The notes under the pieces were generated by a model. It did no database searches. It was not told the origin of the DNA and was given only the letters and a program-made list of their open reading frames with translations. This document shows positions 1 to 51,930 of a stretch of 64,000 nt of DNA, in pieces. Position 1 is the stretch's first letter; each line of letters opens with the position of its first letter. The DNA is taken from contig NC_091116.1 of the NCBI RefSeq assembly GCF_024713975.1, forward strand, positions 5,768,621-5,832,620, in the 5' to 3' direction. The translations under genes were made by a program, and so were the position numbers. Origin of the DNA: Paralichthys olivaceus. Lineage: Eukaryota; Chordata; Actinopteri; Pleuronectiformes; Paralichthyidae.

Positions 1-147
1 TGCAGACACTATCTTTTTTTTTTTTTTTTTTCATTTAATTTTTTTATGAACACACTGCTATTATTCTGAACACAACTCTACATCTCACATGGAACAAGCA
101 GCAATAGATCAAATACATTCAAACAATAACTGTTCAAATCTACTCAC

Positions 148-185
148 AAATCCAGCAGTGACACAATCCAGGTGCTTCAACAAAC
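148..185 (-). other. Putative mini-exon f in the array spacer (unit 1)
   Basis: Minus-strand acceptor CATGTGTTACAG, 38 nt, donor ATTT|GTGAGT. In phase after exon e it reads FVEAPGLCHCWI. Joining it to exon a of the next unit gives an immediate TAA, so an endless coding chain across units is not possible in this phase. Confidence 0.4.
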
Positions 186-274
186 CTGTAACACATGACA
201 TGGTTTACAAACACACATTCATATAAAGTCTCTTTTGATTTAATGAACAAACACTGAACTGTACAACCACTTAC

Positions 275-360
275 CACTGTTGATCCTCAGTAACACTGGT
301 GAAACAGCTTAGAGGTTTCTTAGGTCCACATGAAGTACAACCTGGTAGACACAATAACAT
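275..360 (-). other. Putative mini-exon e in the array spacer (unit 1)
   Basis: Minus-strand acceptor CATGTGTTTCAG, 86 nt, donor CAGTG|GTAAGT. One frame is open across it and runs on in frame into exon f, starting at MLLCLPG (VLLCLPG in units with the G variant). Present in all units except unit 24. Confidence 0.45.
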
Positions 361-405
361 CTGAAACACATGAAGGACATACAGTAACCAGGACTTATGG
401 CTCAC

Positions 406-431
406 CTGGAGGAACACATACCTACTTGCTG
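406..431 (-). other. Putative mini-exon d in the array spacer (unit 1)
   Basis: Minus-strand acceptor TTGTTGTTTAG, 26 nt, donor CCAG|GTGAGC. The smallest and least certain of the set. In short-type units this segment is altered and fused to the deletion junction. Confidence 0.3.
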
Positions 432-480
432 CTAAACAACAATCTTTAAAAGCTGATAATCTATTTTAGATCAAACTCAC

Positions 481-529
481 CATTTTCCATGTGGTTCCCT
501 CCCACCACCAAGGACTTTCAGTACAATGT
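481..529 (-). other. Putative mini-exon c in the array spacer (unit 1)
   Basis: Minus-strand acceptor CTTCCAG (CCCCTTTTAG in units 8, 20 and 23), 49 nt, donor ATG|GTGAGT. Spliced after exon b it meets TGA at the fourth codon, so a coding chain would end here. Another frame (IVLKVLGGGREPHGKW) is open but does not match the phase of exon b. Confidence 0.4.
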
Positions 530-619
530 CTGGAAGTGGACAGAAGTGGTCGTCTTTATTTTTAACAACGTCAGTGTGTACAGATTATTCAGACTATTTG
601 CTCTTAATACATTACTTAC

Positions 620-669
620 CTCAAACAACATCGCTCCACCTAACGAGTGAGCCGCTGTCCTCATCGGCC
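620..669 (-). other. Putative mini-exon b in the array spacer (unit 1)
   Basis: Acceptor TGTCATACAG, then 50 nt, then donor GAG|GTAAGT on the minus strand. It accepts phase 1 from exon a and stays open (PMRTAAHSLGGAMLFE), ending in phase 0; the other two frames contain stops. Missing from short-type units. Confidence 0.45.
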
Positions 670-826
670 CTGTATGACAGACAAAACAATCAAGGGTCTC
701 ATTTAGCATCACTGTGTGGCATTCATACAAAAACTAGACTTACACAAAACTAAATTACTATTTAGAAAACCATGCAGGTGCACCCAATAGATTTTTGAGA
801 AGAGAAAAGAATAGAAACATACTCAC

Positions 827-858
827 CTGGGACTTTTCCTGGCTGGACATTCACCTTT
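827..858 (-). other. Putative mini-exon a in the array spacer (unit 1)
   Basis: On the minus strand: acceptor ...CACAATAG, then 32 nt, then donor CCAG|GTGAGT. One frame reads KVNVQPGKVP in unit 1 and KVIVQPGKVP in other units, leaving phase 1. An alternative acceptor upstream (TTGTGTTAG) would extend this frame without a stop. Present in every unit, including short ones. The splice signals are seen; use as an exon is inferred. Confidence 0.45.
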
Positions 859-923
859 CTATTGTGACAGAGGCATGACAAGACAGAACCCTAACACAAT
901 TTCACCACTTTCAACAACAGTCA

Positions 924-1782
924 TTGTGTTCAAAATAACAGCAGTGTGGAGTTCTATTACTCAAGTCAAACAGGTGGCCCTCATTTAAGGACCAAGGCAG
1001 CAAATGTTCTACATGCTAGTTCTAGTGCATTTGTCTGAAAATCACTGGAACATGGGTCATTGTTCACAACAACAGCATACTTTGATTCAAAAGTATCAAG
1101 ACAACCAGAAAAGTACAAACCGCTCAACTACAATCATCTCAAATCCTTTAAAATAGCAACCAAAACCACAAAGACGTGGAAGACAACAGAACACTACCAT
1201 TCAGATGAATCAAACAATAACCTAAATGACACCTCTGCAAAGTCCCATTGTTGAAAAATTAACATGTGCTGAAGAGGTTACAATTTTCCTTAAAGGAAAA
1301 TACCACAACATTTTGTGGAGTGATGACATCACCACTGTTCAAACCACAGAACACGGTGAAGCATGGTAGCACAAGCACAATACTTCAAGACATTGTGTTG
1401 ACTTATGCCAAAGAGGAGACACCCTTCAAATGTGTCTTTCAACTAGACAACCACCCCAAACACACAAGTAAGCACGCAGCATCTTCAACATCCAACAACA
1501 CTAACATAATGGAGTGGCCACTCCGATCATCCTGGACTATAATACCTGTACACAGGTGACACAACTTGGTTGAGTCCATGCAACACACATGTGAAGCAGT
1601 TCTCAAACACACTGCTTGTACAACTAAATACAAGTTCAGTGATTCACAGACAAGACACATCTTCTAGCATTTTTCCCTTCATACAATAAATGTTTGACTT
1701 TGTAAACAACAATGCAGAAACTATCTTTTATTTATTATTAATTTTTTTATTTATTAACACACTGCTATTATTTTGAACACAA
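924..1782 (+). mobile_element. Tc1/mariner relic (unit 1), reference copy
   Basis: Both ends show inverted repeats. The 5' end reads ttgtgttcaaaataacagca, and the 3' end ctgctattattttgaaca then caa is its reverse complement apart from a base or two. Translated fragments in different frames match Tc1-family transposase: NILWSDD and FQQDNHPKHTSK carry the region of two of the catalytic acidic residues, followed by MEWPL where the family has its conserved EWP..SPDLNPIE segment. At about 860 bp, with internal deletions, frameshifts and stops, it cannot encode an active enzyme. Family knowledge: full Tc1 elements are about 1.3-1.6 kb. Confidence 0.85.
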
Positions 1783-2783
1783 CTCTACATCTCACATGGA
1801 ACAAGCAGCAATAGATCAACTACATTCAAACAATAACTGTTCAAATCTACTCACAAATCCAGCAGTGACACAATCCAGGTGCTTCAACAAACCTGTAACA
1901 CATAACATGGTTTACAAACACACATTCATATAAAGTCTCTTTTGATTTAATGAACAAACACTGAACTGTACAACCACTTACCACTGTTGATCCTCAGTAA
2001 CACTGGTGGAACAGCTTAGAGGTTTCTTAGGTCCACATGAAGTACAACCTGGTAGACACAATAACATCTGAAACACATGAAGGAAATGGAGTTATGGCTC
2101 ACATGGAGGGACACACACCTAGTTAGCAAGTGCAGCAAGTTTACCCAATAGATTTTTGAGAAGAGAAAAGAATAGAAACATACTCACCTGGGACTTTTCC
2201 TGGCTGAACAATCACCTTTCTATTGTGACAGAGGCATGACAAGACACAACCCTAACACAATTTCACCACTTTCAACAACAGTCATTGTGTTCAAAATAAC
2301 AGCAGTGTGGAGTTCTATTACTCAAGTCAAACAGGTGGCCCTCATTTAAGGACCAAGGCAGCAAATGTTCTACATGCTAGTTCTAGTGCATTTCTCTGAA
2401 AATCACTGGAACATGGGTCATTGTTCACAACAACAGCATACTTTGATTCAAAAGTATCAAGACAACCAGAAAAGTACAAACCGCTCAACTACAATCATCT
2501 CAAATCCTTTAAAATAGCAACCAAAACCACAAAGACATAGAAGCACGCAGCATCTTCAACATCCAACAACACTAACATAATGGAGTGGCCACTCCGATCA
2601 TCCTGGACTATAATACCTGTACACAGGTGACACAACTTGGTCAACTCCATGCAACACACATGTGAAGCAGTTCTCAAACACACTGCTTGTACAACTAAAT
2701 ACAAGTTCAGTGATTCACAGACAAGACACATCTTCTAGCATTTTTCACTTCTTACAATAAATGTTTGACTTTGTAAAGAACAA
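1713..2783. repeat. Array unit 2, short type (1071 bp)
   Basis: Lacks mini-exons b and c (deletion near 2125-2140) and lacks the transposase middle section (junction near 2540). Confidence 0.9.
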
Positions 2784-2858
2784 TGCAGATCCTATCTTTT
2801 TTTTTTTTTTTTTTCATTTAATTTTTTTATGAACACACTGCTATTATTCTGAACACAA
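2285..2858 (+). mobile_element. Tc1/mariner relic (unit 2), middle deleted
   Basis: Inverted-repeat ends present; the transposase middle between 'caaagacat' and 'agaagcacgcagc' is missing. Confidence 0.8.
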
Positions 2859-4495
2859 CTCTACATCTCACATGGAACAAGCAGCAATAGATCAAATACA
2901 TTCAAACAATAACTGTTCAAATCTACTCACAAATCCAGCAGTGACACAATCCAGGTGCTTCAACAAACCTGTAACACATGACATGGTTTACAAACACACA
3001 TTCATATAAAGTCTCTTTTGATTTAATGAACAAACACTGAACTGTACAACCACTTACCACTGTTGATCCTCAGTAACACTGGTGAAACAGCTTAGAGGTT
3101 TCTTAGGTCCACATGAAGTACAACCTGGTAGACACAATAACACCTGAAACACATGAAGGACATACAGTAACCAGGACTTATGGCTCACCTGGAGGAACAC
3201 ATACCTACTTGCTGCTAAACAACAATCTTTAAAAGCTGATAATCTATTTTAGATCAAACTCACCATTTTCCATGTGGTTCCCTCCCACCACCAAGGACTT
3301 TCAGTACAATGTCTGGAAGTGGACAGAAGTGGTCGTCTTTATTTTTAACAACGTCAGTGTGTACAGATTATTCAGACTATTTGCTCTTAATACATTACTT
3401 ACCTCAAACAACATCGCTCCACCTAACGAGTGAGCCGCTGTCCTCATCGGCCCTGTATGACAGACAAAACAATCAAGGGTCTCATTTAGCATCACTGTGT
3501 GGCATTCATACAAAAACTAGACTTACACAAAACTAAATTACTATTTAGAAAACCATGCAGGTGCACCCAATAGATTTTTGAGAAGAGAAAAGAATAGAAA
3601 CATACTCACCTGGGACTTTTCCTGGCTGGACATTCACCTTTCTATTGTGACAGAGGCATGACAAGACACAACCCTAACACAATTTCACCACTTTCAACAA
3701 CAGTCATTGTGTTCAAAATAACAGCAGTGTGGAGTTCTATTACTCAAGTCAAACAGGTGGCCCTCATTTAAGGACCAAGGCAGCAAATGTTCTACATGCT
3801 AGTTCTAGTGCATTTGTCTGAAAATCACTGGAACATGGGTCATTGTTCACAACAACAGCATACTTTGATTCAAAAGTATCAAGACAACCAGAAAACTACT
3901 AACTGCTCAACTACAATCATCTCAAATCCTTTAAAATAACAACCAAAACCACAAAGACGTGGAAGACAACAGAACACTACCATTCAGATGAATCAAACAA
4001 TAACCTAAATGACACCTCTGCAAAGTCCCATTGTTGAAAAATTAACATGTGCTGAAGAGGTTACAATTTTCCTTAAAGGAAAATACCACAACATTTTGTG
4101 GAGTGATGACATCACCACTGTTCAAACCACAGAACACGGTGAAGCATGGTAGCACAAGCACAATACTTCAAGACATTGTGTTGACTTATGCCAAAGAGGA
4201 GACACCCTTCAAATGTGTCTTTCAACAAGACAACCACCCCAAACACACAAGTAAGCACGCAGCATCTTCAACATCCAACAACACTAACATAATGGAGTGG
4301 CCACTCCGATCATCCTGGACTATAATACCTGTACACAGGTGACACAACTTGGTTGAGTCCATGCAACACACATGTGAAGCAGTTCTCAAACACACTGCTT
4401 GTACAACTAAATACAAGTTCAGTGATTCACAGACAAGACACATCTTCTAGAATTTTTCCCTTCATACAATAAATGTTTGACTTTGTAAACAACAA
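2784..4495. repeat. Array unit 3, full type (1712 bp)
   Basis: All mini-exon signals and the longer Tc1 relic are present. First unit of higher-order repeat copy 1. Confidence 0.9.
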
Positions 4496-4564
4496 TGCAG
4501 AAACTATCTTTTATTTATTATTAATTTTTTATTTATTAACACACTGCTATTATTCTGAACACAA
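3707..4564 (+). mobile_element. Tc1/mariner relic (unit 3)
   Basis: Long form with both inverted-repeat ends and the QQDNHPKHTSK fragment. Confidence 0.8.
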
Positions 4565-6201
4565 CTCTACATCTCACATGGAACAAGCAGCAATAGATCA
4601 ACTACATTCAAACAATAACTGTTCAAATCTACTCACAAATCCAGCAGTGACACAATCCAGGTGCTTCAACAAACCTGTAACACATGACATGGTTTACAAA
4701 CACACATTCATATAAAGTCTCTTTTGATTTAATGAACAAACACTGAACTGTACAACCACTTACCACTGTTGATCCTCAGTAACACTGGTGGAACAGCTTA
4801 GAGGTTTCTTAGGTCCACATGAAGTACAACCTGGTAGACACAATAACACCTGAAACACATGAAGGACATACAGTAACCAGGACTTATGGCTCACCTGGAG
4901 GAACACATACCTACTTGCTGCTAAACAACAATCTTTAAAAGCTGATAATCTATTTTAGATCAAACTCACCATTTTCCATGTGGTTCCCTCCCACCACCAA
5001 GGACTTTCAGTACAATGTCTGGAAGTGGACAGAAGTGGTCGTCTTTATTTTTAACAACGTCAGTGTGTACAGATTATTCAGACTATTTGCTCTTAATACA
5101 TTACTTACCTCAAACAACATCGCTCCACCTAACGAGTGAGCCGCTGTCCTCATCGGCCCTGTATGACAGACAAAACAATCAAGGGTCTCATTTAGCATCA
5201 CTGTGTGGCATTCATACAAAAACTAGACTTACACAAAACTAAATTACTATTTAGAAAACCATGCAGGTGCACCCAATAGATTTTTGAGAAGAGAAAAGAA
5301 TAGAAACATACTCACCTGGGACTTTTCCTGGCTGGACATTCACCTTTCTATTGTGACAGAGGCATGACAAGACACAACCCTAACACAATTTCACCACTTT
5401 CAACAACAGTCATTGTGTTCAAAATAACAGCAGTGTGGAGTTCTATTACTCAAGTCAAACAGGTGGCCCTCATTTAAGGACCAAGGCAGCAAATGTTCTA
5501 CATGCTAGTTCTAGTGCATTTGTCTGAAAATCACTGGAACATGGGTCATTGTTCACAACAACCGCATACTTTGATTCAAAAGTATCAAGACAACCAGAAA
5601 ACTACTAACTGCTCAACTACAATCATCTCAAATCCTTTAAAATAACAACCAAAACCACAAAGACGTGGAAGACAACAGAACACTACCATTCAGATGAATC
5701 AAACAATAACCTAAATGACACCTCTGCAAAGTCCCATTGTTGAAAAATTAACATGTGCTGAAGAGGTTACAATTTTCCTTAAAGGAAAATACCACAACAT
5801 TTTGTGGAGTGATGACATCACCACTGTTCAAACCACAGAACACGGTGAAGCATGGTAGCACAAGCACAATACTTCAAGACATTGTGTTGACTTATGCCAA
5901 AGAGGAGACACCCTTCAAATGTGTCTTTCAACAAGACAACCACCCCAAACACACAAGTAAGCACGCAGCATCTTCAACATCCAACAACACTAACATAATG
6001 GAGTGGCCACTCCGATCATCCTGGACTATAATACCTGTACACAGGTGACACAACTTGGTTGAGTCCATGCAACACACATGTGAAGCAGTTCTCAAACACA
6101 CTGCTTGTACAACTAAATACAAGTTCAGTGATTCACAGACAAGACACATCTTCTAGCATTTTTCCCTTCATACAATAAATGTTTGACTTTGTAAACAACA
6201 A
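4496..6201. repeat. Array unit 4, full type (1706 bp)
   Basis: Full type; the poly-T/TTTA tract in the Tc1 3' end is shorter than in unit 3. Confidence 0.9.
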
Positions 6202-6270
6202 TGCAGAAACTATCTTTTATTTATTATTAATTTTTTATTTATTAACACACTGCTATTATTTTGAACACAA
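5413..6270 (+). mobile_element. Tc1/mariner relic (unit 4)
   Basis: Long form, both inverted-repeat ends. Confidence 0.8.
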
Positions 6271-7271
6271 CTCTACATCTCACATGGAACAAGCAGCAAT
6301 AGATCAACTACATTCAAACAATAACTGTTCAAATCTACTCACAAATCCAGCAGTGACACAATCCAGGTGCTTCAACAAACCTGTAACACATGACATGGTT
6401 TACAAACACACATTCATATAAAGTCTCTTTTGATTTAATGAACAAACACTGAACTGTACAACCACTTACCACTGTTGATCCTCAGTAACACTGGTGGAAC
6501 AGCTTAGAGGTTTCTTAGGTCCACATGAAGTACAACCTGGTAGACACAATAACATCTGAAACACATGAAGGAAATGGAGTTATGGCTCACATGGAGGGAC
6601 ACACACCTAGTTAGCAAGTGCAGCAAGTTTACCCAATAGATTTTTGAGAAGAGAAAAGAATAGAAACATACTCACCTGGGACTTTTCCTGGCTGAACAAT
6701 CACCTTTCTATTGTGACAGAGGCATGACAAGACACAACCCTAACACAATTTCACCACTTTCAACAACAGTCATTGTGTTCAAAATAACAGCAGTGTGGAG
6801 TTCTATTACTCAAGTCAAACAGGTGGCCCTCATTTAAGGACCAAGGCAGCAAATGTTCTACATGCTAGTTCTAGTGCATTTCTCTGAAAATCACTGGAAC
6901 ATGGGTCATTGTTCACAACAACAGCATACTTTGATTCAAAAGTATCAAGACAACCAGAAAAGTACTAACCGCTCAACTACAATCATCTCAAATCCTTTAA
7001 AATAGCAACCAAAACCACAAAGACATAGAAGCACGCAGCATCTTCAACATCCAACAACACTAACATAATGGAGTGGCCACTCCGATCATCCTGGACTATA
7101 ATACCTGTACACAGGTGACGCAACTTGGTCAACTCCATGCAACACACATGTGAAGCAGTTCTCAAACACACTGCTTGTACAACTAAATACAAGTTCAGTG
7201 ATTCACAGACAAGACACATCTTCTAGCATTTTTCACTTCTTACAATAAATGTTTGACTTTGTAAAGAACAA
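6202..7271. repeat. Array unit 5, short type (1070 bp)
   Basis: Same two deletions as unit 2. Confidence 0.9.
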
Positions 7272-7346
7272 TGCAGACACTATCTTTTTTTTTTTTTTTT
7301 TTCATTTAATTTTTTTATGAACACACTGCTATTATTCTGAACACAA
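6773..7346 (+). mobile_element. Tc1/mariner relic (unit 5), middle deleted
   Basis: Short form, both ends present. Confidence 0.8.
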
Positions 7347-8693
7347 CTCTACATCTCACATGGAACAAGCAGCAATAGATCAAATACATTCAAACAATAA
7401 CTGTTCAAATCTACTCACAAATCCAGCAGTGACACAATCCAGGTGCTTCAACAAACCTGTAACACATGACATGGTTTACAAACACACATTCATATAAAGT
7501 CTCTTTTGATATAATGAACAAACACTGAACTGTACAACCACTTACCACTGTTGATCCTCAGTAACACTGGTGGAACAGCTTAGAGGTTTCTTAGGTCCAC
7601 ATGAAGTACAACCTGGTAGACACAATAACACCTGAAACACATGAAGGACATACAGTAACCAGGACTTATGGCTCACCTGGAGGAACACATACCTACTTGC
7701 TGCTAAACAACAATCTTTAAAAGCTGATAATCTATTTTAGATCAAACTCACCATTTTCCATGTGGTTCCCTCCCACCACCAAGGACTTTCAGTACAATGT
7801 CTGGAAGTGGACAGAAGTGGTCGTCTTTATTTTTAACAACGTCAGTGTGTACAGATTATTCAGACTATTTGCTCTTAATACATTACTTACCTCAAACAAC
7901 ATCGCTCCACCTAACGAGTGAGCCGCTGTCCTCATCGGCCCTGTATGACAGACAAAACAATCAAGGGTCTCATTTAGCATCACTGTGTGGCATTCATACA
8001 AAAACTAGACTTACACAAAACTAAATTACTATTTAGAAAACCATGCAGGTTCACCCAATAGATTTTTGAGAAGAGAAAAGAATAGAAACATACTCACCTG
8101 GGACTTTTCCTGGCTGAACAATCACCTTTCTATTGTGACAGAGGCATGACAAGACAGAACCCTAACACAATTTCACCACTTTCAACAACAGTCATTGTGT
8201 TCAAAATAACAGCAGTGTGGAGTTCTATTACTCAAGTCAAACAGGTGGCCCTCATTTAAGGACCAAGGCAGCAAATGTTCTACATGCTAGTTCTAGTGCA
8301 TTTGTCTGAAAATCACTGGAACATGGGTCATTGTTCACAACAACAGCATACTTTGATTCAAAAGTATCAAGACAACCAGAAAACTACTAACCGCTCAACT
8401 ACAATCATCTCAAATCCTTTAAAATAGCAACCAAAACCACAAAGACATAGAAGCACGCAGCATCTTCAACATCCAACAACACTAACATAATGGAGTGGCC
8501 ACTCCGATCATCCTGGACTATAATACCTGTACACAGGTGACACAACTTGGTCAACTCCATGCAACACACATGTGAAGCAGTTCTCAAACACACTGCTCGT
8601 ACAACTAAATACAAGTTCAGTGATTCACAGACAAGACACATCTTCTAGCATTTTTCACTTCTTACAATAAATGTTTGACTTTGTAAAGAACAA
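7272..8693. repeat. Array unit 6, type lacking the Tc1 middle (1422 bp)
   Basis: Keeps all six mini-exon signals but lacks the transposase middle section. Pairs with unit 18. Confidence 0.9.
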
Positions 8694-8767
8694 TGCAGAC
8701 ACTATCTTTATTTTTTTTTTTTTCATTTAATTTTTTTATGAACACACTGCTATTATTCTGAACACAA
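8195..8767 (+). mobile_element. Tc1/mariner relic (unit 6), middle deleted
   Basis: Short form, both ends present. Confidence 0.8.
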
Positions 8768-10296
8768 CTCTACATCTCACATGGAACAAGCAGCAATAGA
8801 TCAAATACATTCAAACAATAACTGTTCAAATCTACTCACAAATCCAGCAGTGACACAATCCAGGTGCTTCAACAAACCTGTAACACATGACATGGTTTAC
8901 AAACACACATTCATATAAAGTCTCTTTTGATTTAATGAACAAACACTGAACTGTACAACCACTTACCACTGTTGATCCTCAGTAACACTGGTGAAACAGC
9001 TTAGAGGTTTCTTAGGTCCACATGAAGTACAACCTGGTAGACACAATAACATCTGAAACACATGAAGGACATACAGTAACCAGGACTTATGGCTCACCTG
9101 GAGGAACACATACCTACTTGCTGCTAAACAACAATCTTTAAAAGCTGATAATCTATTTTAGATCAAACTCACCATTTTCCATGTGGTTCCCTCCCACCAC
9201 CAAGGACTTTCAGTACAATGTCTGGAAGTGGACAGAAGTGGTCGTCTTTATTTTTAACAACGTCAGTGTGTACAGATTATTCAGACTATTTGCTCTTAAT
9301 ACATTACTTACCTCAAACAACATCGCTCCACCTAACGAGTGAGCCGCTGTCCTCATCGGCCCTGTATGACAGACAAAACAATCAAGGGTCTCATTTAGCA
9401 TCACTGTGTGGCATTCATACAAAAACTAGACTTACACAAAACTAAATTACTATTTAGAAAACCATGCAGGTTCACCCAATAGATTTTTGAGAAGAGAAAA
9501 GAATAGAAACATACTCACCTGGGACTTTTCGTGGCTGAACAATCACCTTTCTATTGTGACAGAGGCATGACAAGACACAACCCTAACACAATTTCACCAC
9601 TTTCAACAACAGTCATTGTGTTCAAAATAACAGCAGTGTGGAGTTCTATTACTCAAGTCAAACAGCTGGCCCTCATTTAAGGACCAAGGCAGCAAATGTT
9701 CTACATGCTAGTTCTAGTGCATTTGTCTGAAAATCACTGGAACATGGGTCATTGTTCACAACAGCATACTTTGATTCAAAAGTATCAAGACAACTAGAAA
9801 AGTACAAACCGCTCAACTACAATCATCTCAAATCCTTTAAAATAGCAACCAAAACCACAAAGACGTGGGAGACAACAGAACACTACCATTCAGATGAATC
9901 AGACAATAACCTAAATGACACCTAAGCAAAGTCCCATTGTTGAAGCATGGTAGCACAAGCACAATACTTCAAGACATCATGTTGACTTATGCCAAAGAGG
10001 AGACACCCTTCAAATGTGTCTTTCAACTAGACAACCACCCCAAACACACAAGTAAGCATGCAGCATCTTCAACATCCAACAACACTAACATAATGGAGTG
10101 GCCACTCCGATCATCCTGGACTACAATACCTGTACACAGGTGACACAACTTGGTCGACTCCATGCAACACACATGTGAAGCAGTTCTCAAACACACTGCT
10201 TGTACAACTAAATACAAGTTCAGTGATTCACAGACAAGACACATCTTCTAGCATTTTTCACTTCATACAATAAATGTTTGACTTTGTAAAGAACAA
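8694..10296. repeat. Array unit 7, partial Tc1 deletion (1603 bp)
   Basis: Keeps all mini-exons. The Tc1 relic has its own smaller deletion at about 9940, where the segment following 'cccattgttgaa' in full units is missing. Pairs with unit 19. Confidence 0.9.
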
Positions 10297-10361
10297 TGCA
10301 GACACTGCTATCTTTTATTTATTTATTTTTTATTAACACACTGCTATTATTTTGAACACAA
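9616..10361 (+). mobile_element. Tc1/mariner relic (unit 7), partial deletion
   Basis: Intermediate form: lacks the NILWSDD segment but keeps the DNHPKHTSK segment. Confidence 0.8.
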
Positions 10362-11898
10362 CTCTACATCTCACATGGAACAAGCAGCAATAGATCAACT
10401 ACATTCAAACCAATAACTGTTCAAATCTACTCACAAATCCAGCAGTGACACAATCCAGGTGCTTCAACAAACCTGTAACACATGACATGGTTTACAAACA
10501 CACATTCATATAAAGTCTCTTTTGATTTAATGAACAAACACTGAACTGTACAACCACTTACCACTGTTGATCCTCAGTAACACTGGTGGAACAGCTTAGA
10601 GGTTTCTTAGGTCCACATGAAGTACAACCTGGTAGACACAATAACACCTGAAACACATGAAGGACATACAGTAACCAGGACTTATGGCTTACCTGGAGGA
10701 ACACATACCTACTTGCTGCTAAACAACAATCTTTAAAAGCTGATAATCTATTTTAGATCACACTCACCACTTTCCATGTGGTTCCCTCCCACCACCAAGG
10801 ACTTTCAGTACAATGTCTAAAAGGGGACAGAAGTGGTCGTCTTTATTTTTTTACAACTATAAACAACGTCAGTGTGTACAGATTATTCAGACTATTTGCT
10901 CTTAATACATTACTTACCTCAAACAACATCGCTCCACATAACGAGTGAGCCGCTGTCCTCATCGGCCCTGTATGACAAACAGAGAAAACATCAGGGGTCT
11001 CATTTAGCAAACACTGTGTGGCATTCATACAAAAACTGGACTTACACAAAACTAAATTACAAATTAGAAAACCATGCAGGTTCACCCAATAGATTTTTGA
11101 GAAGAATAGAAACACTCACCTGGGACTTTTCCTGGCTGAACAATCACCTCTCTATTGTGACAGAGGCATGACAAGACACAACCCTAACACAATTTCACCA
11201 CTTTCAACAACAGTCATTGTGTTCAAAATAACAGCAGTGTGGAGTTCTATTACTCAAGTCAAACAGGTGGCCGTCATTTAAGGACCAAGGCAGCAAATGT
11301 TCTACATGCTAGTTCTAGTGCATTTGTCTGAAAATCACTGGAACATGGGTCATTGTTCACAACAGCATACTTTGATTCAAAAGTATCAAGACAACCAGAA
11401 AAGTACAAACCGCTCAACTACAATCATCTCAAATCCTTTAAAATAACAACCAAAACCACAAAGACAAGGGAGACAACAGAACACTACCATTTAGATGAAT
11501 CAGACAATAACCTAAATGACACCTAAGCAAAGTCCCATTGTTGAAGCATGGTAGCACAAGCACAATACTTCAAGACATCGTGGTGACTTATGCCAAAGAG
11601 GAGACACCCTTCAAATGTGTCTTTCAACTAGACAACCACCCCAAACACACAAGTAAGCACGCAGCATCTTCAACATCCAACAACACTAACATAATGGAGT
11701 GGCCACTCCGATCATCCTGGACTACAATACCTGTACACAGGTGACACAACTTGGTCGACTCCATGCAACACACATGTGAAGCAGTTCTCAAACACACTGC
11801 TTGTACAACTAAATACAACTTCAGTGATTCACAGACAAGACACATCTTCAAGCATTTTTCCCTTCATACAATAAATGTTTGACTTTGTAAAGAACAAT
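10297..11898. repeat. Array unit 8, partial Tc1 deletion (1602 bp), edge unit
   Basis: Last unit of block 1. Its mini-exon c has a better acceptor (pyrimidine run CCCCTTTTAG on the minus strand) than most other units. The Tc1 3' inverted repeat is lost at the junction with the flank. Pairs with unit 20. Confidence 0.9.
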
Positions 11899-11910
11899 GC
11901 AGACACTGCT
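11217..11910 (+). mobile_element. Tc1/mariner relic (unit 8), 3' end lost
   Basis: Intermediate form. The 3' inverted repeat is missing; the element runs into a poly-T tract at the array/flank junction. Confidence 0.75.
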
Positions 11911-13400: not shown

Positions 13401-13534
13401 CGCTTTTAAAGGGGCCTATTGTGAGATGTTACCTTGATCGCCCACACACGCACAGTAAAACTATCAAAGGGCCCAATCCAGGAATCCTGGACTTGGAGAA
13501 TTCCTCCCTCTGTCCAGAATTTACACCAACATAC

Positions 13535-13954: not shown

Positions 13955-13958
<4 letters not shown>

Positions 13959-39967: not shown

Positions 39968-40244
39968 CTGCAGGAAATAAGAGTCACAGTTACTCAGGGT
40001 TGTGTTCTCCATCAAATCCAACAGCTTAGTGTTTGGGAAATGTACAACTACAACTCACTGTGGATGTTTGGTGATTACTGATTTTGTTTTCAGTTTTATA
40101 TCAAATCAAATGTCCTTCTACTTATAAGGTCAAAAAAAAACTGAACAACATGGTAGGTAAAAATATAACATAATATATATGAATAGAAGTTCCTATAAAT
40201 GTTAATTAAACATTTGGAAGGGCCTTTTCGTGATGTCACGCTAC

Positions 40245-40257
<13 letters not shown>

Positions 40258-40280
<23 letters not shown>
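40258..40280. repeat. (AT)n microsatellite, shorter copy
   Basis: Counterpart of 13959-14000 in flank 2. Confidence 0.95.
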
Positions 40281-40281
<1 letters not shown>

Positions 40282-40395
40282 TGGGGTTTGGTAGGGCTGG
40301 GTGATACAACACTATTGATAAAATGTGTGGACTCTGCTGACATCTGGTGGTGAAGCTGTGTGTTGCAGCTTCTCCTTCCAAACATGAAAGAATAT

Positions 40396-40532
40396 GTTAG
40401 ACGACATACTAACCTATGACTTTTTTTGTCATATTTTAGACGACATACTAACCTATGACTTTTTTTTCTTATTATTTTAGACGACATGACATCCTAGAAA
40501 AAGTCATAGTATAATATGACGTCTGAAATTTA
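40396..40532. mobile_element. MITE-like palindromic repeat, copy 2
   Basis: Counterpart of 14116-14252 in flank 2. Confidence 0.5.
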
Positions 40533-41056
40533 AATGTATCAAGAGTCGCAGCAGATTCCACTATTAACAAACATGTTAACAATGGAAAAGCTGCAGCAAC
40601 ACGTCAAACACACAGAAGATCCAATAAATGTGTTGATATTTTAAGCAATAGTCACCAAATGATGGGTCTGTGGGCTCCTGGCATCTCCAGCGTACTGGCT
40701 CCCTCTACCTCCATCCCTAGCTAATGACAGTAGCAAACATAGCAAACAAATGATACGAGCTTTCCTTAGGAACACACTTTAGTTCATATAAAATACATTT
40801 AAATGGAGCAGGGAGCTCAAACGGTGACATTAACATTTTAATAAAGGTCAAATCAGGGCTGAGCGATAAAAGAATATCAATAATGATGTCCAATATATAT
40901 CAATGTAATGATTATGCATTGTGAAAACAATGATGAGGTAGAGCACATGCAATAGATGCCACGTGTCTAGTGCAATTCTTTACTCATTCAACAGAGCAAT
41001 AGTATTAAAACAATTAAAATGATCTAATCTGTTAAATAGAGATGAAACAATAAACC

Positions 41057-41210
41057 TGTTTCAATTCAATTTAATTTGTATAGCACCAAATCATAATATA
41101 CATTATCTCAAGGCACTTTAAAATCTCATTTAACATAGAGAAACCCAACAGTTCCCACAATGAGCAGCACTTTGGCGACTGTGGAGAGGAAAAACTCCCT
41201 CCCTCCCTGT
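41057..41210 (-). mobile_element. LINE 3'-end fragment, copy 2
   Basis: Counterpart of 14777-14930. Confidence 0.7.
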
Positions 41211-41776
41211 TTATCGTCATGATCATTATTTTCCATGTATATTGATTTATGATGGTAAATTATATATAATTGGATGTTTTACATGGCTGCAAAACACTAT
41301 CAATACTTATTGCAATTTAATATTCATCATAAAGGTTATATATACGCATATACGTACCAAGGTTATTATAGTTTTGAAATTGTCATTAGTTTTTATTTTT
41401 ATTTAGTTTTTCAATTTGCATTTTTATTTCATATAATACACAATACAAATCTATGAAATCAACACGTATTGAACTTGTGTTACTTTGATATTGATGAAAA
41501 TGAAAAGCTGATCATTATTAAAGTGGACGTACTTTAGTTAGTTTAGGACAAAAGAAGCGATCGAGTGTTTTACAAGAGAATTCCACACGCGCTCAGGTGT
41601 GGTTAGCTTGGGATGCTAGCTTAGCTTAGCATCGACACGAGGAACTAATGAGACGAGTTTTGCTCGAAAACGCAAGTGAACAATGAAAAATGTGCAGCGA
41701 CACGTCAAACACACAGAAGATATAATAACTGTGTATAACTGTGTATAACTGTGTTGATATTTGAAACAGTATTCAC

Positions 41777-41890
41777 CTCGTGAAGATCTACGGGCTCCCG
41801 ATCCAAGCAGTTCCGCATCCAAGCGGAAGTACCGACTGGCAAACAGGAAGTGGAGCACTCCAATGGGATATATGGAGAAGGGGAACTTCG
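41777..41890 (-). other. Putative first exon, copy 2
   Basis: Identical counterpart of 15497-15610, also with TTG in place of the ATG. Confidence 0.35.
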
Positions 41891-42578
41891 AATAGACCAA
41901 GTTACGTAGACTCGCGGGGGTGGAGTTTCTTTATCTAACTCAAACAATAAATATTGTAAACAATTTCCAAACATTCGTGGGCACGACTGATTTAAAAAAA
42001 ATGTATAGCACATCATATGATATGATAATAAAATATCACAATCTGTTTATTTAATTTATTTTTAAATGTTATTCATCCCTCATGAGCACATCCATTGACA
42101 GGATGATATAAAGTTATTATAATTGATCTTCAGGGTTGTTACTACTCTGAAAAGTATGCACACTTACTGCACTTGGGCTTTTTAATATAATTTGTATACC
42201 TTACTATACAATGATTGGGTTTTTTGCATTCTTTTGCCTTAATATACAATTCATCTTGATGATATTATATATATATTATCAGAGAACTATGATGGGAAGA
42301 GGGCTGCATTGGACTGAATTATATATTTTCAGCCCCTGTGCCTAAGTACTGCTGTATGTGTATACATTGTAGCTTTAAAGCATGTTTACCTTTTTTTTTG
42401 GTTTCTTCCGCACACACACACAATCTCACATTACTTAGCCGAAGCAATATCCTTTAACTGCCCATGTTGGTTTATAGACTTGCTTGGTGAACTGAGCCAG
42501 CAGCAGGCAGCCTTGTGCCGTCCGTGCCATGTGGCGTGGCCTCAAATTCACCGTTTTCCTAATTAGGTGTCAGCAAGG

Positions 42579-42683
42579 ATGGCAGATGATGTCTCTTCTC
42601 TCCTCCTCAATGTGGACACCAATGTGCTGGGCCTTGGCAAGCAGGAAATCGAAGAGCGGAGGAAATGCGGGCAGCGTGACTGA
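42579..42683 (+). pseudogene. Orphan exon-like frame, copy 2
   Basis: Counterpart of 16299-16403. Confidence 0.3.
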
Positions 42684-44464
42684 GTCGCACGTTTTTCTTT
42701 ACCTTCCATTAACAGACATATCAGTGGTGACGCATACACCAAAAAGTGCCACGGTCCCAAATATTACTGGATCAATCTGGTCTGCCGATATCTTTGGTTT
42801 TAGCAATATGATTCACACTGAGCCATTTATTTGCATCCTTCTATCGTGGTTATTTTGTGGACACCAGGTGTTCCCAGTGTGAACTCTGCAGGAACTATTC
42901 AACCCAGTTGCGAATTCCTGCTCAGAAAACAGACTTGACGTCAGAATAGGATGAAATTAGCTTCAGTTCCACGAATAACTTTGAAAAGCTTGCATTTGAA
43001 TTTGGGAGCCACATACATCACACTCCTGCACACAGGGATTATTTACTAACAATTAAACAGAAGGTTATTTCACAAATGAGAGCACTGGTGCACTCCGTGT
43101 TGTCATTGTAATGATTACTGATGCTGAAAAGATGGAGTTAATGATGATGATGATGACACTCATTAGTTATTGAGATACCACGAGCTCAAAAGTTCATCGT
43201 GGGTATCGATTCATTTGTCAGTGCCTGATAATTACTCGAGGGTTGTTCTGTGTCTTCCTTTCACTTCCTGTCTACAGTCCGAGGTAAACGTTTAAAAAAC
43301 ATGAAACACCAAAAAGAGCGATATTTTATGTGCGTGTTTTGGTTATATGCATATGAATGGAGATAAATTAAATGGCAGACAGCAGATGTATTTCAGCCAA
43401 TATGCTCCACTTCTTTTGCTCTACGCACCCACTGTTTACCTTCGGACCATTCTGTGTGGCATTTGCATTTTCCCCGTGTCTATGGAGGTTCGAGGAGAAC
43501 AGTTTCAATCTGAAAAGTGGAATGATACCTTCTCTTACGGCAAAATCAGGGAGAGATTGAGAAAAAATAACACCCGAGGAGCTCCCTACATTTTTCTTTC
43601 AACCTTTTTTCTGTCTCCTGCCCCACAGTGCAGCTCTTAAACCCTGCACTACACTTCACTTTGCTCATCTGCAATTTTCTCATCCACCTGAAAACAAGGC
43701 ATGAATTTCAACTGTGACAATGCACTGTAAAGAATACAGTACTGCACAAAATGTATTTCAATGTGGACTAAACATTCATTAATAGAAAATATGTTTTTTT
43801 TTTATCAAGATACAATTATTATTCTCTGAGAAATCACATATAATGTTAAAATATTTCACAATATTGAATAATTTGATTTGCCCCTGATCTGAAACAGGAC
43901 CACAATGTAATTGGATCCTCACTGACCCATATCCCTCCACCTCCACAGAAATCCATCTGGTAATTTTAACATAATCCCTCAGTTAACACAGTTTATTTCT
44001 ATAGTCACATTCTTTTTTATGGGTCTTAATCCTGTTTACGAACAAACAGACAGAGGGGTGACAACATAACTACCTTGGCAGAGGTAACTAAAGCAAAGTA
44101 CCTCAAAACTTAAGTACAAAACACACAAGCTACTCCATATTGAATGCAGCGTGTGTATTTGACGGTGCGTTCCACTTATTCCTGTCTTGATGTTTTTCAC
44201 CCCATTTCATTTATCTGTCAACTTTAGGAAAAGGTACTTTGCCGTTTCAGATTAAAACAAACATTTAGCAACAATTGAATCGATTAGGAATTACGACGAC
44301 AGATACATTTGTTTTAGCATCAGAGAACTTTATTGACTGCTTTGTGCTGTTTTTTTGGTTTGATTCGATTCATGTGTCAGAATCTGCCTCTGTGGATAAT
44401 AAATACACGTGTGTGTTTGAGTGTTAAACCTCTCACTCCCATCTTCTCCTCTTCCTCCTCGCAG

Positions 44465-44527
44465 ACTTCAAGGTCACCATGCGGCTATTTCCAGCTCGTC
44501 TTCGCTCTCATCCGTGTCGCAAAATGA
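44465..44527 (+). pseudogene. Exon-like segment cut off by the LINE, copy 2
   Basis: Counterpart of 18185-18247. Confidence 0.3.
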
Positions 44528-46653
44528 CAATTCAATTCAATTCAATTTTATTTATATAGCGCCAATTCATAATTTACATTATCTCAAGGCACTTTACATT
44601 TAAAGGTCAAGACCTTAAAACAATATTAACATAGAGAAACCCAACAGTTTCCACAATGAGCAAGCACAGGCGACTGTGGAGAGGAAAAACTCCCTTATTA
44701 ACAGGGAGAAACCTCTGGCAGAACCAGGCTCAATGTGGGCGGTCATCTGCCTCGACCGGTTGGGGTGAGGAAAGAAAAGTAAGGGGGGAGGAAAGGAGAG
44801 ATGGGTGGAAAGCGGGGGAGAGAAGAGAGAGATGAGGTGGAGAGAGAGAGACCGGGAACAATTTGGCACCATCAGTATCAAGGCTGACTATAACAATAAC
44901 TAAATAAATAATGATGACAATGGTGATGGTAGTCGTTGTTGTCCTGCAGTCCCGGTGCCGGAGTTATCTGAAACGAGATAGAGAGAAGAGCCAGAGGGAC
45001 TATGGGAGGACAAAGTGACACTTTGACATGATGACATGTTCAAACTAATAAATAAATAAACAGGTGTGGGGGGGGCAGAGAGACAGAGGGAAGTGATGAA
45101 GTGCTCAATGCATGATGGGAGTTCCCCCAGCAGTCTAGACCTATAGCAGCACAACTAAGGGATGGTTCAAGACTCGCCTGATCCAGCCCTAACTATAGGC
45201 TTTGTCAAAGAAGAAGTTTTTTAATTTTACTTTAAATGCTGAGACACTGTCTGCCTCCCCAACCCAGAGTGGGAGCTGGTTCCACAGGACAGGAGCCTGA
45301 TAGCTAAATGTTCTACCTCCTGCTCTACTCTTACAGACTCTTGGAACCACTAGAGAGCCTGTGTTTTGGGAACGAATAAGGTGTTATCAGCTCTTTGATA
45401 TATGAAGGGGCATGATTGTTGAGGGCTTTAAAAGTGAGGAGCAGGATCTTGAATTCTATTCTAAATTTTACCGGGAGCCAATGTAAGGAAGCTAAGACAG
45501 GAGTGATATGATCTCTCCTTCTAGTTCCTGTCAGCACTCGTGCTGCAGCATTTTGGACCAACTGGAGACTTTTAACAGTCTTCATGGAGCATCCTGCTAA
45601 TAGAGAGTTGCAGTAATCTAATCTAGAGGTTACAAACGCGTGGACTGGTTTTTCAGCATCCTGCTTAGACAGGATGTTTCTAATTTTGGTAATATTGCGC
45701 AGATGGAAGAAAGCCGTCCTAGACACTAGTTTAATATGGGGGTCAAATGACATGTCTTGGTCGAACAACACTCCAAGGTTCCACACAGTGGAGCTGGAAG
45801 CCAGACTGACACCATCCAAAGTGACTATCTGGTCAGACAGTGTTTCTCTGAGATGTTTAGGGCCAATTACAACAACCTCAGTTTTGTCTGAGTTTAAAAG
45901 TAGAACATTTTGGGTCATCCAGGCCTTGGTATCTTTGAGACATTCCTGAAGTTGAAATAGGCGATTAGATTCATCATGCTTCATGGAAATATACAATTTG
46001 TTTAGACATAAATCTGGTGCTATGGTTTCAGGACCAGACAATGTATCAGTGTTATTCACTGGGAGGAGGTGGTGGATTTTATCCCTGATGGTTGTAATTT
46101 CATTAGTGAAGAAGCTCATGAAGTCATTGCTTCTCACATCTAGAGGAATAGATGGGTCAGTAGAGGTGTGACTTTCTGTCAGCCTGGCTACAGTGCTGAA
46201 GAGGAACCTGGGGTTGTTCCTATTTTCTTCTATTAGTAATGAATAATAAGAGGTTTGGGCATTTCTAAGTGCTTTTTTGTCATTTATAAGGCTATTCTTC
46301 CAGGCTAGGTGGAAGTCTTGGCGATTGGTGGAACGCCACTTCCTTTCTAGCTTCCGCGATGTCTGTTTTAGAACGCGCGTTTGGGAATTATACCACGGAG
46401 CTAATCTCCTCTGACTTAGTTTCTTCTTTTTTAATGGGGCGACAGCTTCAAGTGCTGTTTTTAGTGAGGCTGCAGTACTATTTACAAAGTTATCAACTAG
46501 TGTGGGAGTAAGGTTTTGATAATCTTCTTGTATTGTACTGAGACATGGCTGAGAGGGAAGTGAGGAGGGGAGCAGTTCTTTAAATTTGTGAACAGTTTTG
46601 TCGGATAAAAATCGACTGTAATAGAATTTCCGTCCAGAATTGACGTAATTAAG
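44528..46653 (-). mobile_element. 5'-truncated, internally deleted LINE, copy 2
   Basis: Same structure, deletion and 5' junction as 18248-20377, with scattered single-base changes (for example PVFASLHW becomes PVLASLHW) and one fewer AAAT repeats in the 3' region. The frame from 46137 to 45331 is intact, as in copy 1. Confidence 0.85.
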
Positions 46654-46724
46654 AACAATGCAGACACTATCTTTTATTTATTTATTTATTTTTTATTAAC
46701 ACACTGCTATTATTTTGAACACAA
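46654..46724 (+). mobile_element. Tc1 3'-end stub at the LINE/array junction (copy 2)
   Basis: Same truncated stub and same junction sequence as at 20378, so the junction formed once, before the large duplication. Confidence 0.75.
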
Positions 46725-48081
46725 CTCTACATCTCACATGGAACAAGCAGCAATAGATCAACTACATTCAAACAATAACTGTTCAAATCTACTCTCAAAT
46801 CCAGCAGTGACACAATCCAGGTGCTTCAACAAACCTGTAACACATGACATGGTTTACAAACACACATTAATATAAAGTCTCTTTTGATTTAATGAACAAA
46901 CACTGAACTGTACAACCACTTACCACTGTTGATCCTCAGTAACACTGGTGGAACAGCTTAGAGGTTTCTTAGGTCCACATGAAGTACAACCTGGTAGACA
47001 CAATAACACCTGAAACACATGAAGGACATACAGTAACCAGGACTTATGGCTCACCTGGAGGAACACATACCTACTTGCTGCTAAACAACAATCTTTAAAA
47101 GCTGATAATCTATTTTAGATCAAACTCACCATTTTCCATGTGGTTCCCTCCCACCACCAAGGACTTTCAGTACAATGTCTGGAAGGGGACAGAAGTGGTC
47201 GTCTTTATTTTTTTACAACTTTAACAACGTCAGTGTGTACAGATTATTCAGACTATTTGCTCTTAATACATTACTTACCTCAAACAACATCGCTCCACCT
47301 AACGAGTGAGCCGCTGTCCTCATCGGCCCTGTATGACAGACAAAACAATCAAGGGTCTCATTTAGCATCACTGTGTGGCATTCATACAAAAACTAGACTT
47401 ACACAAAACTAAATTACTATTTAGAAAACCATGCAGGTGCACCCAATAGATTTTTGAGAAGAGAAAAGAATAGAAACATACTCACCTGGGACTTTTCCTG
47501 GCTGGACATTCACCTTTCTATTGTGACAGAGGCATGACAAGACACAACCCTAACACAATTTCACCACTTTCAACAACAGTCATTGTGTTCAAAATAACAG
47601 CAGTGTGGAGTTCTATTACTCAAGTCAAACAGGTGGCCGTCATTTAAGGACCAAGGCAGCAAATGTTCTACATGCTAGTTCTAGTGCATTTCTCTGAAAA
47701 TCACTGGAACATGGGTCATTGTTCACAACAACAGCATACTTTGATTCAAAAGTATCAAGACAACCAGAAAAGTACAAACCGCTCAACTACAATCATCTCA
47801 AATCCTTTAAAATAACAACCAAAACCACAAAGACATAGAAGCACGCAGCATCTTCAACATCCAACAACACTAACATAATGGAGTGGCCACTCCGATCATC
47901 CTGGACTACAATACCTGTACACAGGTGACGCAACTTGGTCAAGTCCATGCAACACACATGTGAAGCAGTTCTCAAACACACTGCTCGTACAACTAAATAC
48001 AAGTTCAGTGATTCACAGACAAGACACATCTTCTAGCATTTTTCACTTCATACAATAAATGTTTGACTTTGTAAAGAGCAA
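46659..48081. repeat. Array unit 21, type lacking the Tc1 middle (1423 bp)
   Basis: Partner of unit 9. Follows LINE copy 2 through the same junction. Confidence 0.9.
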
Positions 48082-48147
48082 TGCAGACACTGCTATCTTT
48101 TATTTTATTTTATTGTTTATAACACACTGCTATTATTTTGAACACAA
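47583..48147 (+). mobile_element. Tc1/mariner relic (unit 21), middle deleted
   Basis: Short form. Confidence 0.8.
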
Positions 48148-49440
48148 CTCTACATCTCACATGGAACAAGCAGCAATAGATCAACTACATTCAAACAATA
48201 ACTGTTCAAATCTACTCACAAATCCAGCAGTGACACAATCCAGGTGCTTCAACAAACCTGTAACACATAACATGGTTTACAAACACACATTAATATAAAG
48301 TCTCTTTTGATTTAATGAACAAACACACTGAACTGTACAACCACTTACCACTGTTGATCCTCAGTAACACTGGTGGAACAGCTTAGAGGTTTCTTAGGTC
48401 CACATGAAGTACAACCTGGTAGACACAATAACATCTGAAACACATGAAGGAAATGGAGTTATGGCTCACATGGAGGGACACACACCTAGTTAGCAAGTGC
48501 AGCAAGTTTACCCAATAGATTTTTGAGATAAAACAAGAATAGAAACATACTCACCTGGGACTTTTCCTGGCTGGACATTCACCTTTCTATTGTGACAGAG
48601 GCATGACAAGACAGAACCCTAACACAATTTCACCACTTTCAACAACAGTCATTGTGTTCAAAATAACAGCAGTGTGGAGTTCTATTACTCAAGTCAAACA
48701 GGTGGCCGTCATTTAAGGACCAAGGCAGCAAATGTTCTACATGCTAGTTCTAGTGCATTTCTCTGAAAATCACTGGAACATGGGTCATTGTTCACAACAA
48801 CAGCATACTTTGATTCAAAAGTATCAAGACAACCAGAAAAGTACAAACCGCTCAACTACAATCATCTCAAATCCTTTAAAATAGCAACCAAAACCACAAA
48901 GACGTGGAAGACAACAGAACACTACCATTCAGATGAATCAAACAATAACCTAAATGACACCTCTGCAAAGTCCCATTGTTGAAAAATTAACATGTGCTGA
49001 AGAGGTTACAATTTTCCTTAAAGGAAAATACCACAACATTTTGTGGAGTGATGACATCACCACTGTTCAAACCACAGAACACGGTGAAGCATGGTAGCAC
49101 AAGCACAATACTTCAAGACATTGTGTTGACTTATGCCAAAGAGGAGACACCCTTCAAATGTGTCTTTCAACAAGACAACCACCCCAAACACACAAGTAAG
49201 CACGCAGCATCTTCAACATCCAACAACACTAACATAATAGAGTGGCCACTCCGATCATCCTGGACTATAATACCTGTACACAGGTGACACAACTTGGTTG
49301 AGTCCATGCAACACACATGTGAAGCAGTTCTCAAACACACTGCTTGTACAACTAAATACAAGTTCAGTGATTCACAAACAAGACACATCTTCTAGCATTT
49401 TTCACTCAATACAATAAATGTTTGACTTTGTAAAGAACAA
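48082..49440. repeat. Array unit 22, unique recombinant type (1359 bp)
   Basis: The only unit that lacks mini-exons b and c yet keeps the long Tc1 relic. It therefore combines features of the short and full types and could be a recombinant or an ancestral intermediate. Confidence 0.85.
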
Positions 49441-49510
49441 TGCAGACACTGCTATCTTTTATTTTATTTATTTATTTTTTATTAACACACTGCTATTATT
49501 TTGAACACAA
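48652..49510 (+). mobile_element. Tc1/mariner relic (unit 22)
   Basis: Long form inside an otherwise exon-deleted unit. Confidence 0.8.
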
Positions 49511-50855
49511 CTCTACATCTCACATGGAACAAGCAGCAATAGATCAACTACATTCAAACAATAACTGTTCAAATCTACTCACAAATCCAGCAGTGACACA
49601 ATCCAGGTGCTTCAACAAACCTGTAACACATGACATGGTTTACAAACACACATTCATATAAAGTCTCTTTTGATTTAATGAACAAACACTGAACTGTACA
49701 ACCACTTACCACTGTTGATCCTCAGTAACACTGGTGGAACAGCTTAGAGGTTTCTTAGGTCCACATGAAGTACAACCTGGTAGACACAATAACACCTGAA
49801 ACACATGAAGGACATACAGTAACCAGGACTTATGGCTCACCTGGAGGAACACATACCTACTTGCTGCTAAACAACAATCTTTAAAAGCTGATAATCTATT
49901 TTAGATCACACTCACCACTTTCCATGTGGTTCCCTCCCACCACCAAGGACTTTCAGTACAATGTCTAAAAGGGGACAGAAGTGGTCGTCTTTATTTTTTT
50001 TACAACTATAAACAACGTCAGTGTGTACAGATTATTCAGACTATTTGCTCTTAATACATTACTTACCTCAAACAACATCACTCCACATAACGAGTGAGCC
50101 GCTGTCCTCATCGGCCCTGTATGACAAACAGAGAAAACATCAGGGGTCTCATTTAGCAAACACTGTGTGGCATTCATACAAAAACTGGACTTACACAAAA
50201 CTAAATTACAAATTAGAAAACCATGCAGGTTCACCCAATAGATTTTTGAGAAGAATAGAAACACTCACCTGGGACTTTTCCTGGCTGAACAATCACCTTT
50301 CTATTGTGACAGAGGCATGACAAGACACAACCCTAACACAATTTCAACAACAGTCATTGTGTTCAAAATAACAGCAGTGTGGAGTTCTATTACTCAAGTC
50401 AAACAGGTGGCCCTCATTTAAGGACCAAGGCAGCAAATGTTCTACATGCTAGTTCTAGTGCATTTGTCTGAAAATCACTGGAACATGGGTCATTGTTCAC
50501 AACAACAGCATACTTTGATTCAAAAGTATCAAGACAACCAGAAAAGTACAAACTGCTCAACTACAATCATCTCAAATCCTTTAAAATAGCAACCAAAACC
50601 ACAAAGACATAGAAGCACGCAGCATCTTCAACATCCAACAACACTAACATAATGGAGTGGCCACTCCGATCACCCTGGACTACAATACGTGTACACAGGT
50701 GACACAACTTGGTCGAGCCCATGCAACACACATGTGAAGCAGTTCTCAAACACACTGCTTGTACAACTAAATACAAGTTCAGTGATTCACAGACAAGACA
50801 CATCTTCTAGCATTTTTCCCTTCATACAATAAATGTTTGACTTTGTAAACAACAA
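49441..50855. repeat. Array unit 23, type lacking the Tc1 middle (1415 bp)
   Basis: Keeps the mini-exons and lacks the Tc1 middle. Shares the CCCCTTTTAG acceptor of exon c with edge units 8 and 20, and has extra small deletions. Confidence 0.85.
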
Positions 50856-50923
50856 TGCAGACACTATCTTTTTTTTTTTTCATTATTATTTTTTTTTATT
50901 AACACTGCTATTATTTTGAACAA
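50357..50923 (+). mobile_element. Tc1/mariner relic (unit 23), middle deleted
   Basis: Short form; the 3' inverted repeat is partly eroded. Confidence 0.75.
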
Positions 50924-51930
50924 CTCTACTTCTCACATGGAACAAGCAGCAATAGATCAACTACATTGAAACAATAACTGTTCAAATCTTCTCACAAATC
51001 CAGCAGTGACACAATCCAGGTGCTTCAGCAAACCTGTAACACATGACATGGTTTACAAACACACATTATAAAGTCTCTTTTGATTTAATGAACAAACACT
51101 GAACTGTACAACTACTACTGGAGGGACACACACACAGGGTAAATACAAATATACTGGTGATAGAAGATAGAAAATAGGAACCATACTCACCTGGGCATTT
51201 TCCTGGCTGGACAATCACCTTTCTATTGTGACAGAGGCATGACAAGACACAACCCTAACACAAGTTCACCACCTTAAACAACAGTCATTGTGTTTATATT
51301 AAAAACAATATATATATATAAAATAGCAGTCCAACATCACTAACCACATCAATCACTATTTTTAGTAGGCAAATACTTTATGAGTAGATATAGTACACAT
51401 GCTGTTGATGCTATGTAATTGAAAAGGTTGTGTTCAAAATAACAGCAGTGTGGAGTTCTATTACTCAAGTCAAACAGGTGGCCCTCATTTAAGGACCAAG
51501 GCAGCAAATGTTCTACATGCTAGTTCTAGTGCATTTGTCTGAAAATCACTGGAACATGGGTCATTGTTCACAACAACAGCATACTTTGATTCAAAAGTAT
51601 CAAGACAACAAGAAAAGTACAAACCGCTCAACTTCAATCATCTCAAATCCTTTAAAATAACAACCAAAACCACAAAGACGTGGAAGCACACAGCATCTTC
51701 AACATCCAACAACACTAACATAATGGAGTGGCCACTCCGATCACCCTGGACTATAATACCTGTACACAGGTGACACAACTTGGTCGACTCCATGCAACAC
51801 ACATGTGAAGCAGTTCTCAAACAATTGCTAATACAACTAAATACAAGTTCAGTGATTCACAGACAAGACACATCTTCTAGCATTTTTTTTTTCACTTCAT
51901 ACAATAAATGTTTGACTTTGTAAAGAACAA
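50856..51930. repeat. Array unit 24, most diverged edge unit (1075 bp)
   Basis: Lacks the spacer from about 51112 (mini-exons b-e), keeps exons a and f, and lacks the Tc1 middle. It retains about 150 bp (51286-51430, with a short AT tract) before the Tc1 5' inverted repeat. In all other units the sequence jumps directly across a shared 'ttgtgtt'. Confidence 0.85.

Follow-up and report, generated by a model that had tools for sequence, protein, structure and literature searches.

Tandem arrays that supply exons and tandem arrays that contain transposons have both been described. In the extracts of PMC3491370, the transcripts of the mouse Dxz4 array start at an exon just under 2.2 kb outside the array and are spliced to one 163-nt exon that recurs in every 3.8-kb monomer, as demonstrated by ESTs and laddered RT-PCR products. 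Satellites with Tc1/mariner elements include, in the excerpted account of PMC9659126, a mariner inside the satellite DNA of Messor and miDNA4, a Tc1-mariner MITE of Xenopus tropicalis. A further system is flamenco, a unistrand piRNA cluster (PMC10643416).

The locus described here occupies most of a window of 64,000 nucleotides of flounder DNA (the whole stretch analysed). The window is teleost DNA and its ordinary genes lie on the right. The minus-strand open frame at 61367-61918 is Jagunal (Pfam, E 1.1e-36), and the three-exon JAGN1 protein has its top match, among the best 120 of 300, in jagunal homolog 1-B of Embiotoca jacksoni (97% identity). Similarity to solved structures of N6AMT1 (E 7.1e-54) places this gene at about 59.3-60.4 kb on the plus strand. 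A second, partial copy of the end of N6AMT1 and its downstream sequence lies between the gene and the array flank, at a distance of 3 kb, in the pieces 56880-57100/60112-60333 (97.3%), 57948-58181/60621-60854 (97.4%) and 58408-58703/60863-61179 (86%).

Tandem array and Tc1 relic

A BLASTN comparison with the first unit places 24 tandem units within 1-51924, about 35 kb in total, distributed over three blocks. Block 1 (1..11891) contains eight units, and the window begins inside the array or at its edge. Block 2 (20383..38191) contains 12 units and block 3 (46659..51924) four, the last of which is the most reduced. Blocks 1 and 2 are separated by an insert of about 8.5 kb (11892..20382), and blocks 2 and 3 by a second insert of about 8.5 kb (38192..46658). 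Because the two inserts are 99.56% identical, the locus has a higher-order repeat of 26.28 kb. The preliminary description had treated 1..51930 as one tandem array; the repetition is real, but the continuity is lost at the two inserts.

Each full unit (about 1.7 kb) is composed of a decayed Tc1 element of 859 bp and a spacer of 853 nt, the latter in agreement with the roughly 850 bp given before. The eight full units measure 1706-1716 bases each, and recurrent deletions, at about 427-774 in the spacer and about 1182-1436 and 1255-1357 in Tc1, extend the length range to 1.07-1.72 kb. The array has the large and homogeneous tandem units of a macrosatellite, its eight full units out of 24 being 98.9-100% alike, although its unit length falls below the 2 kb that most macrosatellite units exceed according to the extracts of PMC3491370. 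The CpG observed/expected ratio is 0.10-0.24 in the 2-kb bins wholly within the array and 0.27-0.84 in the bins at 12-20 kb and from 52 kb onward.

The Tc1 relic of the first unit (924..1782) has its transposase sense on the plus strand. Its inverted repeats, 924-948 and 1758-1782, are 25 nt long and 96% complementary, and its plus-strand frame, with stops written as X, matches the Sleeping Beauty SB100X transposase (E 9.4e-5 for the whole frame and 0.0028 for the best stretch). Both features bear out the Tc1 remnant proposed earlier. The copy is decayed and dead. The three plus frames of the Tc1 half match no Pfam model. As judged by eye from the sequence, neither inverted repeat is directly adjoined by TA. 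Transcription of the minus strand would yield RNA antisense to the transposase, whose coding strand is the plus strand. A reading in which two Tc1 elements carry the spacer between them as cargo was rejected, since the inverted repeats leave it outside both. The exact pattern of the Tc1 end gave no matches in viral contigs or genome contigs, two collections that hold no fish genomes.

The sequence GAACAATGCAGACACT is present at 14 places in all, five of them array edges (11892, 20377, 38192, 46653 and 51925), where it may be a trace of the cutting or invasion of the blocks. The 8.5-kb inserts may be retro-insertions with GAACAATGCAGACACT as a 16-nt target duplication at these edges, but it also stands at nine inner junctions. 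Both inserts contain an open frame of 448 residues (19055-20401 and 45331-46677), with no match in Pfam or among solved structures, which presumably resembles the terminal part of a LINE reverse-transcriptase protein. In the last unit, spacer and Tc1 are separated by about 125 additional bases (51303-51427), perhaps from an older unit arrangement. Scans of the window with Rfam and for tRNA gave no matches.

Splice-like signals of the spacer

The spacer of the first unit (71..923) carries a series of candidate exons on its minus strand. They were scored with splice matrices that are vertebrate averages and not trained on fish, with which the own splice sites of JAGN1 score 4.2 to 9.7. Candidates b (620..669, 50 nt; donor 7.7, acceptor 4.6), c (481..529, 49 nt; donor 5.7, acceptor 6.6) and e (275..360, 86 nt; donor 5.6, acceptor 4.7) are credible at both ends, as far as the scores of their sites indicate. 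Candidate a (827..858, 32 nt; donor 8.6), with its poor acceptor of -0.3, and candidate f (148..185, 38 nt; donor 0.4, acceptor 2.4) are weak as exons. Candidate d, despite a good donor (7.7), is doubtful for want of an acceptor, which scores -4.0 when the segment is cut at 16 nt (406..421) and -4.4 in the 26-nt cut of the preliminary description. The putative introns a-b, b-c, c-d, d-e and e-f, calculated from the coordinates, measure 157, 90, 59, 45 and 89 nt. Introns of 59 and 45 nt are very short for a vertebrate, and the introns c-d and d-e look too short. The chain score favours, over separate c and d, an alternative exon of 124 nt (406..529) from the acceptor of c to the donor of d.

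Six segments of 32, 50, 49, 26, 86 and 38 nt had been listed, each preceded by a pyrimidine-rich AG. Their positions hold, as do the donors quoted for a, b, c, e and f, with d admitting either cut; the AG is confirmed for b, c and e, weakly for f, but not for a and d. The minus strand of the spacer holds seven GTRAGY (three GTGAGT, three GTAAGT and one GTGAGC) rather than the six donors counted before, and the additional GTAAGT, near 743, falls short of a donor score of 5. The plus strand, held to be free of these hexamers, has indeed no GTRAGT but does have one GTGAGC. The full set had been assigned to every full unit. All six segments are found in 17 of the 24 units, six short units lacking b and c and the last one lacking b to e, and GT and AG are intact in the full-length copies listed, except for one f donor of 24; the exact set of six exons, however, is not supported, the acceptors of a and d and the donor of f being poor. 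The exact pattern of exon b has no matches in the viral contigs, a collection without fish genomes.

Fewer than one GTRAGT per strand had been expected by chance, an estimate that is too low, as dinucleotide shuffling gives 1.89. Six are observed (P 0.010), and seven GTRAGY against 2.27 expected (P 0.0065), in 40,000 shuffles and uncorrected for the choice of segment. The complete donor score, in which the matrix includes the last exon bases, is more discriminating: five donors exceed 5.5 where 0.40 would be expected (P 5e-5), and the donor-score sum of 10.3 is reached by none of 20,000 shuffles, whose maximum is 8.0. The acceptors, pooled against 2000 shuffles, are modestly enriched (P 0.037 for the sum and 0.11 for the count).

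Acceptors and donors were also combined in an exon-chain score, in which acceptor-donor pairs are linked over introns no shorter than 60 nt. On its minus strand the spacer scores 8.5, above all 3000 shuffles, and the score is matched by five of 252 outside segments of 853 nt, all within 59.45-60.9 kb, in the N6AMT1 region. When the strand's own composition is the background, the chain exceeds 2000 of 2000 shuffles whichever of five penalties is applied. With a penalty of 7 the spacer reaches 17.1, a value attained by three of the 252 outside segments, again only in the N6AMT1 region, and the highest score elsewhere is 11.2. A score of 0 is obtained for the opposite strand of the spacer and for Tc1 on either strand. 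The segments of JAGN1 fall below the spacer, which shows that some real genes escape the method. The fully scored splice-like pattern of the minus strand is clearly non-random.

Over all copies, the exons vary at 15 of 271 sites, the splice sites at 4 of 54, the introns at 42 of 528 and Tc1 at 47 of 776. These counts leave out unit u50856 at 272-800 and the six short units at 422-780, where alignments are forced across deletions, as well as positions 1-70 and 1700-1712; the raw exon count before these exclusions was 25 of 271. Purifying selection on the exons, compared with the introns, was not detected (P 0.25). In the most divergent full-spacer units, the exons differ at 5 of 271 positions and the introns at 21 of 519, which is suggestive but was chosen post hoc.

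The donor-like sites could also be a by-product of a minus strand rich in T (34.8%) and G (24.5%), in such a way that one chance segment was copied 24 times and a spliced RNA never existed. This explanation carries a real though clearly minor share of the probability. It agrees with a GTRAGT count that reaches only P 0.01 before any correction for segment choice, with the modest acceptor enrichment and with the lack of detectable exon constraint. On the other hand, the shuffles that never reach the donor sum or the chain score keep the dinucleotides, and the reversed spacer, under its own composition, scores 1.9-5.9 against 10.4-26.2 for the spacer itself. On balance, the pattern is better read, with a confidence slightly above even, as an amplified spliced unit, probably non-coding or decayed, that was copied together with the Tc1 relic. 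The earlier proposal that exons of a real spliced transcript were amplified with a transposon remnant is retained in its core, the splice-like signals of one strand co-amplified with Tc1, but not in its exact six-exon set.

A former protein-coding gene, now a pseudogene whose exons were amplified with Tc1, would explain why a to f, joined with the 16-nt d, give 90 codons with a single stop, and exon b keeps four of the six CpGs of the spacer (chance 1.6e-4, for a feature picked post hoc). Shuffled exons, however, equal this frame in 13% of trials (P 0.13), and the coding reading of the joined frame was rejected. The first stops of the three joined frames fall in b, c and a, ahead of d, and omitting d consequently does not rescue the frame. 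Two joined frames match no Pfam model and no transposase, the joined exons match nothing significant among solved structures (best E 1.2), and neither the one-stop frame nor the three frames together have a protein relative in a fish-rich protein database, in a search that relatives of very different length would escape. The junction from f to a across units yields TAA, as had been noted and as follows from the segment sequences. A pseudogene origin is judged improbable, and the coding product formerly entertained is not supported in view of the stops, of the failure to find a homologue and of the lack of detectable constraint. It is rated as quite improbable that the spacer belongs to a transposon, described or undescribed, whose internal introns or chance sites make the pattern. 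The surroundings are rich in mobile-element debris, but only the inverted repeats of Tc1 exceed 14 nt within 800-2600 and the two joined frames resemble no transposase.

Right flank and possible leftward transcription

The right flank of the array contains, on its minus strand, an exon-like segment of 89 nt (52175..52263; acceptor 7.5, donor 6.0), which is the sole segment of the flank chain and recurs in insert 1 (acceptor 12222, donor 12133). A possible 3' exon is located between this segment and the array (51943..52077, minus strand), with an acceptor at 52077 (4.5), AATAAA near 51987-51982 and an A-run at the array edge. Further minus-strand donors lie at 52805, 52944 and 52961. Strong donors within 52000-53500 number four on the minus strand and two on the plus strand, and the stretch 52148-53000 on the minus strand, adjoining the array, is the richest in strong donors (four) among 378 outside segments.

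Throughout the array the plus strand has more C than G and more A than T. In the right flank, the GC skew persists as far as about 53.4 kb and reappears at 54.0 kb, and the AT skew runs only to about 52.8 kb. On the non-template strand of stickleback and medaka introns, C to T changes exceed G to A, and A to G changes are below T to C, in the extracts of PMC2927911. The first asymmetry would give the GC skew of the array under minus-strand transcription, but the second would oppose such a reading of the skew. The substitutions between copies show no significant transcription asymmetry (30 A/G to 19 C/T, P 0.15). The skew and the exon-like segment beside the array fit leftward transcription, as far as base composition and site scores can tell. 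Such a transcript could have its start beyond the array edge, but it might just as well terminate at the A-run without entering the array.

A part of the right flank of 1.37 kb (52640-54012) is missing from the related stretch in both inserts; its reading as a spliced-out intron was rejected, the ends not being GT-AG. The flank also contains a tandem duplication (52097-52199/52706-52830, spacing 609-632 nt) in which minus-strand motifs are repeated, namely an exon-end-like AGAAG followed by GTAGGT, and AATAAATCC.

Origin of the array and known systems

The favoured course of events begins with a fragment of a spliced transcription unit of the minus strand, either non-coding or decayed by that time, which would have landed beside a Tc1 deletion relic. 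Through unequal exchange, the pair would then have been amplified to a macrosatellite-like array. The splice signals would be real in origin for b, c (or the 124-nt exon from c to d) and e, and less surely so for a and f. If the array is transcribed now, polymerase would most likely enter leftward from the right flank, at about 52-53 kb. The RNA would then join exons of successive units, and the Tc1 copies would stay intronic and antisense to the transposase. A much bolder version, in which one long minus-strand unit from the right flank, with dozens of repeated exons and antisense Tc1 in its introns, is a piRNA-precursor-like macrosatellite RNA that silences teleost transposons and was built from host exons amplified with their antisense target, is regarded as highly improbable.

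If the RNA is real, the locus would be a fish example of a macrosatellite whose monomers provide exons. It would also indicate that an arrangement of the Dxz4 type can arise via transposon-anchored duplication, and that a long array antisense to the Tc1 transposase has been placed under a single promoter. If untranscribed, the array would be a clear case of debris of a transcription unit and a transposon homogenised into a satellite.

Among the literature matches listed, no precedent was found for an array of Tc1 plus exons, which does not prove its absence from print. The closest precedent appears to be mouse Dxz4, as described in the extracts of PMC3491370, and by analogy the flounder array would work likewise if transcribed. 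In both, a tandem array is placed beside ordinary genes with an exon (Dxz4) or an exon-like segment (flounder) outside it; a 3.8-kb Dxz4 monomer, however, has one exon, whereas a 1.7-kb flounder unit, characterized from its DNA, has several candidate exons and a Tc1 copy. With the Tc1/mariner satellites, in the excerpts of PMC9659126, the locus shares a Tc1-type element amplified within the tandem unit and homogenised, but half of its unit is non-Tc1 sequence with candidate exons. Flamenco (PMC10643416) is comparable in that RNA transcribed leftward through the array would run antisense to the transposase of each unit; the flounder locus, seen at the level of DNA, differs in being a homogeneous array of one element.
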